This document shows, piece by piece, positions 2,849 to 8,536 of a stretch of 8,536 nucleotides of DNA; the stretch's first letter is position 1; each line of letters starts with the position of its first letter. Origin of the DNA: an uncultured Eubacteriales bacterium. GTDB taxonomy: Bacteria > Bacillota > Clostridia > Saccharofermentanales > Fastidiosipilaceae. The stretch spans positions 1 to 8,536 of the forward strand of contig CABKML010000041.1 of the NCBI GenBank assembly GCA_902373515.1, in the 5' to 3' direction. Below the pieces are notes generated by a model that was given only the letters and a program-made list of their open reading frames with translations, made no database searches and was not told the DNA's origin. A program made the translations under genes and the position numbers.

Positions 2849-4063
2849 ATGATTAAACGCGAACTGTATATGAGTCGTATTCGTCCATTTATTGGAACTG
2901 ATTTGATTAAGGTCATGACCGGTATCCGCCGATGCGGAAAGTCGGTTATGCTGAAACTGATTCAGCAGGAGCTTACAGAAACCGGTATTAGTTCGACGCA
3001 GTTTATTTCAATCAACTTTGAAGATATGTGCTATTCCCATCTTCTAAGCGCTCAGGCATTGAATGACGAGATTGTCAAACGGGCAAAAGAGATTGGCGGC
3101 AAGGTTTATCTTTTTTTCGATGAGATTCAGGAGGTTAAAGACTGGGAAAAGTGCATCAATTCTCTACGTGTTTCTCTGGATTGTGATATTTACATTACCG
3201 GATCGAATGCAAAGTTGCTATCCGGCGAGCTTGCGACTTATTTGGGCGGTAGATATGTGGAGTTTGTGCTATATCCTTTCTCCTTCGGGGAGTTTATAGA
3301 GCTGTATCGTTCGGTCAAGCCCGATGCGTCAAATCAGCAGTGTTTTCAAGAATACTTGCTTGCCGGCGGCATGCCTTATCTTGCAAATCTACATTATGCA
3401 GATGCGCCGTCTAAGCAGTATCTTCATGATTTGTTTAATTCGGTTCAGCTTAAGGATATTGTGAAACGTAATAAAATTCGTGATGTTGATTTGCTTGAAC
3501 GAATCATTGCTTACGTGATTGCTAATGTTGGAACGACTTTTTCTGCAACGTCTCTTGCCAAGTTTTTGAAAAACGAGCATCGGACTGTCGCTCCGGAAAC
3601 AATCCTGAATTATATAAAATACTGCTGCGACGCGTACTTATTCTATCAGGTGAAAAGAGAGGATTTGCAAGGCAAGCAAGTGCTTTCTTCTAATGAAAAA
3701 TATTATATTGCTGATCATGGTATCCGCGAGGCTATCTTCGGCGGCAATATGCGAGATATTAATCTCACTTTGGAGAATATCGTATATTTGGAATTGCTTC
3801 GCCGTGGTTATGAAGTGACTGTTGGCAGAATGGGTGACAAGGAAATTGATTTTGTATGCAGCCGGCGCGGTGAAAAGTTGTATGTTCAGGTCACTTATTT
3901 GCTGGCTTCAGAGGAAACGGTGAGCCGCGAGTTTGGAGTGTATGACGCTATTCGCGATAATTTCCCGAAATATGTTGTTTCTCTCGATGAGTTTGATATG
4001 AGCCGAAATGGCATTAAGCACAGAAACATTCGTGATTTTCTTTTATCTGATAAGTGGAACTGA
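2849..4063 (+). CDS. AAA_14/DUF4143-family ATPase
   Basis: This 404-residue protein belongs to the widespread bacterial and archaeal family of an AAA+ domain followed by DUF4143. The Walker A motif is GIRRCGKS (residues 25-32), Walker B is VYLFFDE (86-92), a sensor-like TGSN lies at 117-120, and LGGR with YVEFVLYPFSFGEF (132 onward) is characteristic. The C-terminal part (about residues 200-404) is DUF4143 with a PD-(D/E)XK-like outline: E315 in LELLRRGYEV, EIDF with D334, and LYVQVTY around Q347. Whether it cuts DNA is unknown; the usual E-x-K is replaced by Q-V-T, as I recall is common in this family. AAGGTGA at 2836-2842 supports the ATG. The family's role is not established, though members are often found in variable islands. 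Here it lies between two antitoxin copies. Confidence 0.9.
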   Translation: MIKRELYMSRIRPFIGTDLIKVMTGIRRCGKSVMLKLIQQELTETGISSTQFISINFEDMCYSHLLSAQALNDEIVKRAKEIGGKVYLFFDEIQEVKDWEKCINSLRVSLDCDIYITGSNAKLLSGELATYLGGRYVEFVLYPFSFGEFIELYRSVKPDASNQQCFQEYLLAGGMPYLANLHYADAPSKQYLHDLFNSVQLKDIVKRNKIRDVDLLERIIAYVIANVGTTFSATSLAKFLKNEHRTVAPETILNYIKYCCDAYLFYQVKREDLQGKQVLSSNEKYYIADHGIREAIFGGNMRDINLTLENIVYLELLRRGYEVTVGRMGDKEIDFVCSRRGEKLYVQVTYLLASEETVSREFGVYDAIRDNFPKYVVSLDEFDMSRNGIKHRNIRDFLLSDKWN

Positions 4064-4111: not shown

Positions 4112-4216
4112 TTAGCCATACGCTTTCTTAAAGTCTTCCATAACAGCCGGTGTTTCAGCATTAAACTTCGGGACTTCTACTTTAAAAGGAAGACCGCCGT
4201 GTAAAATGCACTGGCG
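4112..4216 (-). pseudogene. C-terminal fragment of a RelB/DinJ-like antitoxin
   Basis: Read on the minus strand, this encodes RQCILHGGLPFKVEVPKFNA, then ETPAVMEDFKKAYG, and a TAA stop (4112-4114). Bases 4151-4217 match 2521-2587 of the orphan antitoxin at 66 of 67 positions. Outside that core the two differ: this copy has a shorter C-terminal tail. Upstream of RQCIL the antitoxin sequence breaks off at 4217 into unrelated sequence (GEQVNFAKG in the same frame). It has no start and no helix-turn portion, so it is a broken gene. With the orphan antitoxin it makes a direct repeat around the ATPase. The bases 4218-4314 after the junction hold nothing I recognise. Confidence 0.75.
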
Positions 4217-4307
4217 TCCTTTAGCGAAATTGACCTGCTCCCCTTGCCAACTCACCCCTATGCATATTGAACTAATTACAAAAACGACGCACCGTCAGCA
4301 AAGAACA

Positions 4308-4335: not shown

Positions 4336-5454
4336 ATGAAAATAAGTAAACACACAGCACAATTAATCGTTGACGAATTACGGGAAGTAATCAACGAACA
4401 TATCAATTTTATCAGCACAGACGGAATCATCATCTATTCCACCGATACCAAGCGCATCGCCACCTTTCATCAGGCGGGCCTACTCTGCGTCAAAGAAAAC
4501 CGCACCGTCGCCGTCACGAATGATGACGAATACGCCGGCTCCAAAAAAGGAATCAACATGCCTTTGACTTTTAACGGCGAAATCATCGCGGCCATCGGCA
4601 TAACGGGAGAAATTACCGTAGTCAACAAATACGGCGCCATCATCAAAAAAATGACCGAAATCCTGCTGAAAGAAACTTATGCCCAAAAAATTCTGAAGCA
4701 AAAGCGGGAACGCGTGAAATATTACCTGGAAAATCTAATCAGCAAAAGTGAACACGATTTGGCCGACAGCACCCGCCTCACGGGGCAAGCGATCCCCGAA
4801 GGCAATCCTTCCATCTACGACAAATTCATCTGTATCGGCAAAATCGGCAGCGGCGACATCGCAATCGAACAAATTGACAAGCTCTATGAAATCTTAGAGA
4901 ACAACTTGGAAGCAAGCTGCCTTTTTTCCGTCTTCTTCAACGAAATAATTATTTACAGCTATCAGAATACTTCCGCAACTTTATCGGCACTTTTAAATAG
5001 CTGTTGTGCGGAAATTGCGGACAAAATCGGCTACGCTTTCAGTTTCGGCGTCAGCGAAAAATTCAGCGATCTGCAGACAGCCGGCAGAATGTACAAGGAA
5101 GCTGAGATTGCTTGGCGCTGGGGACATTTGGCGCAATTGGACAGTAATATTTTCCATTATCGGCATTTTGATATTGAGCTGTTGTTAAGCTCCGTGCCGG
5201 AAGAGACTTTGAAGCAGTACAAAAAAATTATTCTCGGCCGCCTGGCTGATAAGTCGGAATACGATTTCTACGCTAATTTGTTGAAAATTTATGTGCAATG
5301 CAACTGTTCCCTCTCTGCTTGCGCCGAAAAGCTCTTTATTCACAAAAACACGGTGCAGTATCGTCTGACCAAGTTGCATCAGCTGACGGGCTTCAATCCG
5401 CAAAATATCATGGATTTGATTAAGCTCTATCTGGCTTTCGCTATTAATATTTGA
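4336..5454 (+). CDS. CdaR/PucR-type sugar diacid regulator
   Basis: This 372-residue transcription factor has the three-part layout of CdaR. An N-terminal diacid-recognition domain spans residues ~1-130 (MKISKHTAQLIVDELREVIN ... INFISTDGIIIYSTD ... KRIATFHQAGLLC ... PLTFNGEIIAAIGITGE). A GGDEF-like or linker middle (~135-290) follows, and the C-terminal PucR helix-turn-helix is at ~305-372 (NCSLSACAEKLFIHKNTVQYR, then LTGFNPQNIMDLIKLYLAF). Known relatives sense organic diacids such as glycerate, glucarate or galactarate and activate catabolic operons. No such catabolic genes are in the window, so the ligand and targets are unknown. The start at 4336 is supported by AGGGA. Base composition is more GC-rich than the island to its left, which suggests it is the resident chromosomal edge. 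It converges on the exporter gene. Confidence 0.88.
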   Translation: MKISKHTAQLIVDELREVINEHINFISTDGIIIYSTDTKRIATFHQAGLLCVKENRTVAVTNDDEYAGSKKGINMPLTFNGEIIAAIGITGEITVVNKYGAIIKKMTEILLKETYAQKILKQKRERVKYYLENLISKSEHDLADSTRLTGQAIPEGNPSIYDKFICIGKIGSGDIAIEQIDKLYEILENNLEASCLFSVFFNEIIIYSYQNTSATLSALLNSCCAEIADKIGYAFSFGVSEKFSDLQTAGRMYKEAEIAWRWGHLAQLDSNIFHYRHFDIELLLSSVPEETLKQYKKIILGRLADKSEYDFYANLLKIYVQCNCSLSACAEKLFIHKNTVQYRLTKLHQLTGFNPQNIMDLIKLYLAFAINI

Positions 5455-7369: not shown

Positions 7370-7385
7370 TTGTTGTCCTCTCAGC

Positions 7386-7643
7386 GGCGCGGCTCTTTTT
7401 GGGGGGGCAGATGGCGCTTGGGGGCCGAGGCTATTGGTGCGCCCGTGCTCTTTGGAACAGCGCAACGCATAGGGGCCGGGGCTCTTTGGGGGAGCAGATG
7501 GCGCTCATAGGGGGACCTGTGCTGTGCAGGCGGCGCTATTTGCGTTGGGAGAACTCGATAACACTCGTACAAACTTAGAAGTGTTCGTGCCCGGCAGCGC
7601 TCTTGTACGACTTTAGATAGCGCTCGTGCCCGGCAGCGCTCTT
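7386..7643. repeat. GC-rich repeat region upstream of the NUDIX gene
   Basis: Two imperfect copies of a GGCTCTTT-GGGGG-GCAGATGGCGCT unit lie at 7391-7420 and 7480-7508. Further right is a tandem pair of 36 and 39 bases (7564-7599 and 7600-7638), each ending in TCGTGCCCGGCAGCG. The left part resembles the tract at 5517-5560. On the minus strand the NUDIX frame is open back to 7513 and reads APSAPPK twice. A second frame (7701 down to 7381) reads ERCRAR twice at the tandem repeat. Neither has a ribosome site, and both are strongly biased in composition, so I do not call a gene. The region probably also holds the NUDIX promoter, which I could not locate. Confidence 0.55.
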
Positions 7644-7796
7644 CCGGCGCCTCGCATCCTTTTAAGAAACTCGCTTTTGCCGCTTCTTTCTTCAAAAACA
7701 TATTCTGGCACTTTGCTGCTGTTTAAGCAAGAGAGCGGATTTAAGACTGCAAGAAAAAGCAGATTTCCGTTGAAATAAATAAGGAGTCTGCAAAAT

Positions 7797-7886
7797 ATCG
7801 GAAATTCAGCGTATGCGAGAAATACCCGATATCCTCACCATAAAAAATTGCTTTCCCGAGATCGCCCACGCGTATGCGGGAAACAC
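7797..7886 (-). CRISPR. Relic type I-E-like CRISPR: two degenerate repeats and one spacer
   Basis: On the minus strand, 7886-7858 reads GTGTTTCCCGCATACGCG followed by TGGGCGATCTC. This is a 29-base unit with the CCCGC/GCG-GGG hairpin and the GTnTTCCCCGC start of type I-E repeats, about four changes from a typical Firmicutes version as I remember it. Exactly 61 bases on, 7825-7797 begins GTATTTCTCGCATACGC, matching at 15 of its first 17 positions, and then loses similarity in its 3' half, as terminal repeats usually do. The 32 bases between (7826-7857) have the standard I-E spacer length. At the next 61-base step on either side I see no repeat, and no cas gene is in the window. It is a relic or an orphan mini-array; coincidence is possible because only two units remain. 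Confidence 0.55.
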
Positions 7887-7997
7887 TCAGCAAGAAAAAT
7901 ATTGTTCTGCTTCATTTCAGCTGTTACTTTTTCTCCCTGATATCCTGACATTGGAAGAACAGTTTTACATTGCCGTGTGCTTAATACCTTGATTATT

Positions 7998-8116
7998 TTA
8001 TTGTCTATCACTAAAGAAATCCTTCCAAAATGGATTTTCTTCTGTTCAGGTGTCAATGCGTGTGGATAATCCATAAACAGATTGAAGACCTACTTCTTGT
8101 CAAAGCTGAATAACCA
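7998..8116 (-). pseudogene. Decayed small gene, C-terminal part of a conserved hypothetical protein
   Basis: On the minus strand the frame reads WLFSFDKK, a TAG stop, VFNLFMDYPHALTPEQKKI, and then, after a shift of frame, PFWKDFFSDRQ and a TAA at 7998-8000. From memory, small Firmicutes proteins (a DUF7675-like group) end in FSFDK...LF.DYP..LTPEQK.IFDEENP.W.DFF..R. The gene therefore appears to carry at least one nonsense codon and a short deletion between KKI and PFW that removed the FDEEN part. A frame starting at the ATG of MDYPH (8074) runs on to 7835 into the CRISPR relic, but that continuation looks like an out-of-frame artefact. The family identification is uncertain; the decay is seen directly. 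Confidence 0.5.
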
Positions 8117-8121
8117 TTAAC

Positions 8122-8223
8122 CTATGCTTTCTTTCCTTCTGATGTGTTAATAAATTCATCTGTGTTGAAATTGCTGTCTACCAATACGCTATCTTTGATA
8201 CAATGTGCCTGTGCCAAAGACAT
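8122..8223 (-). CDS. Possible 33-residue peptide or gene fragment
   Basis: A short minus-strand frame (MSLAQAHCIKDSVLVDSNFN, then TDEFINTSEGKKA) is preceded by GGAG with 8-base spacing. The frame stays open upstream of the ATG as far as the terminator at 8248-8292. I do not recognise it. It could be a small gene, or the remains of the 5' part of the decayed gene next to it or of another gene. Confidence 0.2.
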   Translation of the reverse strand: MSLAQAHCIKDSVLVDSNFNTDEFINTSEGKKA

Positions 8224-8247
8224 GCTCTGAACTCCGTGAAAAGGCTT

Positions 8248-8292
8248 GTAAAAACAAAAAATTCCTCTCACTTGTTTGAACTGTGAGAGGAA
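8248..8292 (-). terminator. Rho-independent terminator, minus strand
   Basis: A perfect 8-base stem CCTCTCAC/GTGAGAGG (8264-8271 and 8283-8290, extended by two A-T pairs) has an 11-base loop and on the minus strand is followed by AATTTTTTGTTTTT. It would stop transcripts coming from the right edge of the window. Confidence 0.75.
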
Positions 8293-8328
8293 AAAGTCAG
8301 GGTATTTTTCTAAAACTTTTCAATTTTT

Positions 8329-8370
8329 TGCGTAAAATAAAAAAGATCCCCGAAAAATTTTCTCGGAAAT
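8329..8370 (-). terminator. Second minus-strand terminator-like hairpin
   Basis: An imperfect palindrome, CCGAGAAAATTTTTCGG on the minus strand (8366-8350), is followed by GGATC and then a TTTTTTATTTT run. Together with the hairpin about 80 bases further on, it makes a tandem terminator for a minus-strand transcript from beyond the right edge. Confidence 0.5.
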
Positions 8371-8415
8371 CTAAGTAAGTACTCTATTATGTTTTATCTT
8401 AGCGAGCAGGCCATT

Positions 8416-8491
8416 TGTGGATAAGTTTATCCAAAGCAGTCATCGTTAGGGTTGCACCCTAAGACCAAAATTTGGTTGATGTAATTTACAT
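8416..8491. repeat. Cluster of four tight palindromes with a DnaA-box sequence
   Basis: Four short, nearly loopless inverted repeats stand in a row: TGGATAA-gt-TTATCCA (8418-8433), TTAGGGT-tgc-ACCCTAA (8446-8462), ACCAAA-a-TTTGGT (8464-8476) and ATGTAA-t-TTACAT (8479-8491). All arms are perfect. The first contains TTATCCACA on the minus strand (8416-8424), the consensus DnaA box; another perfect TTATCCACA lies at 8061-8069. The arrangement could be a replication or recombination site, protein-binding operators, or the 3' structure of a transcript from the right. Confidence 0.5.
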
Positions 8492-8536
8492 TATGAGCAG
8501 TTTGCCGACGGAACGGTGAAATGTATTGAGAATGAG
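8486..8536 (-). other. Window-edge stretch, possible end of a minus-strand gene
   Basis: From the right edge, one minus-strand frame reads NTFHRSVGKLLIM and stops at 8486-8488; another stays open for 35 codons to a stop near 8430 (YINQILVLGCNPNDDCFG). Neither is recognisable in so short a piece. The two terminators to the left imply that some minus-strand gene ends near here. Confidence 0.2.

Follow-up and report, generated by a model that had tools for sequence, protein, structure and literature searches.

A likely orphan, truncated relic of a type I-E CRISPR array in an uncultured Eubacteriales bacterium

In type I-E CRISPR-Cas systems, Cas6e cleaves the repeat at the base of its hairpin. 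Repeats around a spacer also occur outside arrays, in CreA guide genes, which commonly carry two degenerate repeats; the two CreA modules with a stated location lie in or beside cas operons (both statements from the excerpted text of PMC8501985). In the six haloarchaeal systems treated in the excerpted part of PMC9458426, the first CreA repeat is the more diverged and keeps its Cas5-binding end, and the second largely loses that end. We analysed a window of 8,536 nucleotides, the whole stretch of DNA presented here. The segment at 7797-7886 of its minus strand very probably consists of a 32-base spacer flanked by two damaged type I-E repeats, the likely dead end of an array that lost its other units and its cas genes. 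We regard the locus as real and of an ordinary kind, no new system but probably a type I-E CRISPR relic, orphaned and truncated.

On the minus strand the locus begins with unit 1, a mutated type I-E CRISPR repeat of 29 nt (7858-7886, read from 7886 to 7858; GTGTTTCCCGCATACGCGTGGGCGATCTC), continues with a spacer-like interval of 32 nt for which no target was found (7826-7857, read from 7857 to 7826; GGGAAAGCAATTTTTTATGGTGAGGATATCGG), and ends with unit 2, a truncated repeat (7797-7825, read from 7825 to 7797; GTATTTCTCGCATACGCTGAATTTCCGAT), in which the 17 nt at 7809-7825 alone still resemble unit 1. The starts of the two units are exactly 61 bases apart, in keeping with the ~61-nt repeat-spacer period of type I-E, and the regularity of this spacing is that of a single interval between two units. 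The earlier note had described this arrangement of two minus-strand units 61 bases apart, with a 29-base repeat and a 32-base spacer, correctly. Over the first 17 positions units 1 and 2 are identical at 15, over the last 12 nowhere, and they differ at 14 of 29 positions overall. The degeneracy that had been ascribed to the 3' half of unit 2 is therefore real but was understated, no base being shared with unit 1 after base 17. The window contains one pair of 17-mers that are at least 15/17 alike at a distance of 61, and no such pair was seen in 200 dinucleotide shuffles. The length of the spacer, 32 nt, is that of the spacers in two live arrays described below (genomes G073 and G358).

We assembled a reference set with the Cas6e model TIGR01907, which matched 22 of the 299 genomes searched within one phylum, at 23 places. 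Arrays were found at 19 of these 23 type I-E loci, and 61 was the commonest period in all 19, with an array finder that covered periods 58-64 only. A repeat profile was built from the 18 distinct I-E repeats of the 19 arrays and run against a background of 2,645,690 positions (both strands of L001-L088). Aligned in this way to I-E repeats, as the earlier note had proposed, unit 1 scored 26.2 bits; the background maximum was 17.9 bits, and no background position scored as high. Unit 1 also matches the repeat of the live arrays (GTCTTTCCCGCATACGCGGGGGTGATCC) at 24 of 28 positions and has 5 of its last 8 bases. An I-E-like repeat with a CCCGC/GCGGG-type stem is thus recovered in unit 1, and over 17 nt only in unit 2. 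Unit 1 had been said to keep the CCCGC/GCG-GGG stem; most of the stem and the loop are indeed present, but relative to the live repeat the stem has one mismatch and one G-U pair. Bases of the 5' handle are altered as well. By its sequence, unit 1 can be recognised as a type I-E repeat that has mutated.

We also searched 398 sampled genomes with a pattern of 27 bases of unit 1, allowing at most 3 mismatches and using the reversed pattern as a control. The pattern was found in 3 of the 398 genomes, at 10 places that all read GTCTTTCCCGCATACGCGGGGGTGATC, and the reversed control was found in none. G073 holds six copies of the matching repeat and G358 three, both at 61-base steps, and G251 holds one copy near a contig end, immediately downstream of cas3, cse1, cas7, cas6e, cas1e and cas2e (NCBIfam, run on all but two frames of the operon). 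The cas operon beside the G251 copy indicates that another bacterium has the near-identical repeat as part of a type I-E locus. No cas gene was detected among four frames examined on the G073 contig, so the array there is tied to type I-E by its repeat alone. All three genomes come from the same phylum as the genome with the Oribacterium parvum locus L001 and are, as far as known, not close kin of the host. The earlier note had held that its reading would be undermined if no relative carried a similar repeat in an I-E array and if, in relatives, both units belonged to an unrelated gene; for the repeat we observed the opposite, one of the three occurrences lying behind I-E cas genes, albeit in no close kin of the host. 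As a separate observation on the G251 locus, its Cas2e is fused in one frame to a DnaQ-like 3'-5' exonuclease domain (L132, 8565-9497).

Unit 2 scored -18.7 bits on the same profile, a level reached by 18,138 background positions, the low score being due to the loss of its 3' part. It matches the live repeat at 17 of 28 positions, and within its first 17 bases it agrees with the best reference repeat at 14. With such a score, unit 2 counts as a repeat solely through its distance from unit 1 and its likeness to it. That similarity ends so abruptly after base 17 points to a break within the repeat, or to its end having been replaced, rather than to even point decay. In the reference arrays whose right end is present, the last repeat departs from the consensus in 8 of 12 cases (for example 24/28 in L130, 26/28 in L121 and 23/28 in L118) and is intact in the other 4. 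The likeness to a leader-distal terminal repeat that had been suggested for unit 2 holds to this extent, but the 12 last repeats span 23 to 28 of 28 positions and unit 2 is more damaged than any of them, in a count that left out repeats below 22/28 and in which the slot after the last repeat reached at most 12.

Scanning the window with the profile yielded no further unit of the quality of unit 1, and a direct-repeat search returned two copies. No third unit was seen by eye 61 bases to either side, though a unit in the poor state of unit 2 might have escaped notice. The set of at least three near-identical repeats that marks a type I-E array was not found. No cas family was matched among 9 of the 33 listed ORFs in Pfam or among 6 of the 33 in NCBIfam and PADLOC, and none in the minus frames to the right of the array in Pfam or NCBIfam. 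No leader or cas2 end was recognised, by eye and against the leaders of the reference arrays, in the minus-strand stretch where a leader would lie (7887-8000). Neither an adjacent cas operon nor a leader was therefore found, in a window that ends 650 bases past the array, at 8536. A tblastn comparison of the window with 1025 ORFs taken from I-E loci was also made, with E-values per query, uncorrected for the number of queries. Of the best 30 rows, 17, including the top 4, fall on the 7797-7886 stretch with E-values from 3e-4 to 0.016; judged by their letters, these are spurious frames through arrays, several of them from the same locus, which agrees with a type I-E array at this place. The remaining 13 rows are scattered, with E-values of 0.001 or worse, and none was accepted as a cas fragment. 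One of these 13 has a query frame that looks like Cas7; it matches a RelB-like gene at 2584-2691 with an E-value of 0.012. On both counts, no visible cas genes and no third repeat, our results agree with the earlier note, within the ORFs and frames examined and for repeats of the quality of unit 1.

A neighbour upstream, which is not part of the array, is a DUF7675 (PF24723) pseudogene at ~8001-8146 on the minus strand, with internal stops and a frame change (Pfam; coordinates computed from residue numbers). Profile positions 12-49 match at a Pfam E-value of 3.4e-14, and positions 51-65 match in another frame at an E-value of 0.0061, below the Pfam cut-off. A minus-strand ORF at 7835-8074 overlaps unit 1, and its upstream part belongs to this pseudogene, which ends at ~8001. 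As an ORF it had no match in Pfam (E 0.001), NCBIfam or PADLOC (E 1). We considered it as a cas6e remnant and rejected it, Pfam giving DUF7675, NCBIfam nothing and PDB one row at an E-value of 0.89.

The spacer (7826-7857), which the earlier note had marked for comparison with phage and plasmid sequences, gave no match above chance. The rows listed for phages and plasmids had E-values of 0.3 or more (one listing holding 20 of 30 records), and scans of viral contigs for exact 22-mers and 21-mers both gave 0. A self-targeting spacer was considered and dismissed: 21 of the 32 bases match 1036-1067 in an HTH_3 gene, and 4 of 73 background stretches of equal length reach at least 21. The exact 29-base unit 1 occurred in 0 viral contigs. 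The exact first 18 bases are present in viral contig L112, with no second copy seen by eye over 401 bases near this match. A megablast of the whole window against plasmids and phages gave no match.

Folded alone, the live repeat reaches -12.6 kcal/mol, unit 1 -8.1 kcal/mol and unit 2 -1.4 kcal/mol; the hairpin of unit 1 is weakened, and unit 2 keeps only the left arm of the stem. When the 107-nt RNA is folded as a whole, unit 1 does not form its repeat hairpin; instead the spacer pairs with unit 1 and with bases beyond unit 2, and 25 of 200 shuffles fold equally well. A normal crRNA 3' end is not expected, because unit 2 retains the left arm alone. Since unit 2 is without a hairpin for Cas6e, and unit 1 has a stem mismatch and changes in the 5' handle, a normal crRNA from this locus is unlikely, and little or none is predicted to be made. 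No sigma-70-like promoter was found in 7400-8536, where shuffles averaged 1.7.

Elsewhere in the window, the NUDIX, EamA and CdaR proteins have matches of 97-99% from metagenome entries of one source only. Among the matches listed, the best named relatives are from Lactobacillus (67% and 66%, NUDIX) and Oribacterium (57%, EamA); for CdaR the closest named entry of the 120 listed, at 43%, belongs to Anaerococcus. On these matches the host is probably an undescribed member of Bacillota. Of the EamA loci in named genomes, none exceeds 57% identity among the best 80 of 577. The family of G073 was covered by 9 genomes, none with an EamA match at E 1e-60, a scan of genomes for NUDIX gave no match, and CdaR gave 8 matches at E 1e-30, with 27-32% identity, in 398 genomes of one phylum. 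An AAA_14/DUF4143 ATPase at 2849-4063 scores 545 bits against PADLOC PDC-S01, a model among known and candidate defence proteins. An 84-nt repeat, 93% identical, occurs at 2504-2587 and 4134-4217, and is perhaps a second, partial copy of a RelB-like antitoxin gene across the AAA_14/DUF4143 gene. Another repeat pair, at 125-267 and 2198-2339, is 94% identical over 119 nt and 89% identical over a further 28 nt, and the copy at 125-267 has a hairpin (TTTTTAACG...CGTTAAAAA) at one end; this pair resembles a small element of dispersed or MITE-like type flanking HTH, ParE and RelB genes. The intergenic region at 7370-7700 has 58.6% G+C, compared with 46% to its left and 39% to its right, and contains imperfect repeats of GGCTCTTTGGGGGAGCAGATGGCGCT and of GCTCGTGCCCGGCAGCGCTCTT.

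Three other readings of the locus have to be weighed. It could be a CreA- or CreR-like guide, with purposely divergent ectopic repeats and a spacer that leads a Cascade encoded elsewhere to silence a host promoter by seed pairing. Two degenerate repeats with one spacer outside an array fit the layout of such guides as given in the excerpts of PMC8501985 and PMC9458426, and unit 2 has lost its last 8 bases, as has the second repeat in the six haloarchaeal systems. This fit is partial, however: unit 2 has lost its stem too, and unit 1 is the better kept overall, whereas in those six systems it is the first repeat that is more diverged (PMC9458426, excerpted part). The seed of a CreA spacer would pair with a nearby promoter next to a PAM. 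Scanning the window for seed matches (positions 1-5, 7 and 8; rows with fewer than 12/32 total matches dropped) gave none on the promoter side, and the sole full match outside the spacer, at 4706, is inside the CdaR-like gene. No cas genes were found alongside within the window, which ends 650 bases past the array, and we consider a guide of this kind very unlikely.

That the locus is a functional orphan mini-array, used in trans by a Cascade whose genes lie elsewhere in the host, appears similarly improbable. The case for it is that the loop and most of the stem survive in unit 1, which folds to -8.1 kcal/mol alone, and that cas genes may exist beyond the window, which stops so soon after the array; yet unit 2 has no stable hairpin, unit 1 combines its stem mismatch with an altered 5' handle, the spacer is without a target, and the interval from 7400 to 8536 is without a recognisable sigma-70-like promoter. 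The earlier note had left the choice between the last trace of an array and an orphan mini-array that could still be read; we favour the last trace, since unit 2 has lost its hairpin. Chance resemblance, by an operator or another short palindromic element, draws on two other CGCA-containing stretches at ~6600 and ~6658 of the plus strand, weakly similar local words. It is extremely unlikely, given that none of the background positions reaches the score of unit 1, that the spacing is the exact I-E period, and that a near-identical repeat forms arrays in other genomes. The two plus-strand stretches were themselves rejected as a second pair of units, the one at ~6658 scoring -11.35 bits, far below unit 1, and the one at ~6600 being absent from the listed matches.

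We therefore return to the damaged end of a type I-E array as the preferred reading. The array would once have adjoined a type I-E system, or shared Cas proteins with one. Unit 2 may have been cut by a deletion or by the usual decay of a leader-distal repeat, and unit 1 would afterwards have gathered point changes without selection; that selection was lost is also argued by the mutated state of unit 1, the would-be leader-side repeat. The locus illustrates that combining a repeat profile with the exact period allows a CRISPR stump with a single spacer to be identified from its sequence, and it is a record that this lineage has probably lost a type I-E array. Were it instead a guide RNA that has been retained, it would exemplify CRISPR-based control of genes in type I-E, which little here favours.

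Among known systems, the type I-E array with the repeat GTCTTTCCCGCATACGCGGGGGTGATCC (G251, G073 and G358) is like this locus in 24 of the 28 positions of unit 1, in its 29-nt repeat, its 32-nt spacer and its 61-nt period. It differs in that only two units, both damaged, are present here, with no cas genes found in the window and no recognised leader. CRISPR2 of Enterococcus faecalis is related to type II. As an orphan array it shares with the present locus the absence of adjacent cas genes (excerpts of PMC4580645 and PMC5491264), whereas the locus here is type I-E and retains just one spacer, beside a cut repeat. The CreA antitoxin guides of CreTA, as excerpted in PMC8501985 and PMC9458426, are alike in having two degenerate repeats around one spacer, and the locus departs from them in its better-kept first repeat, with no nearby seed target and no cas neighbours found.
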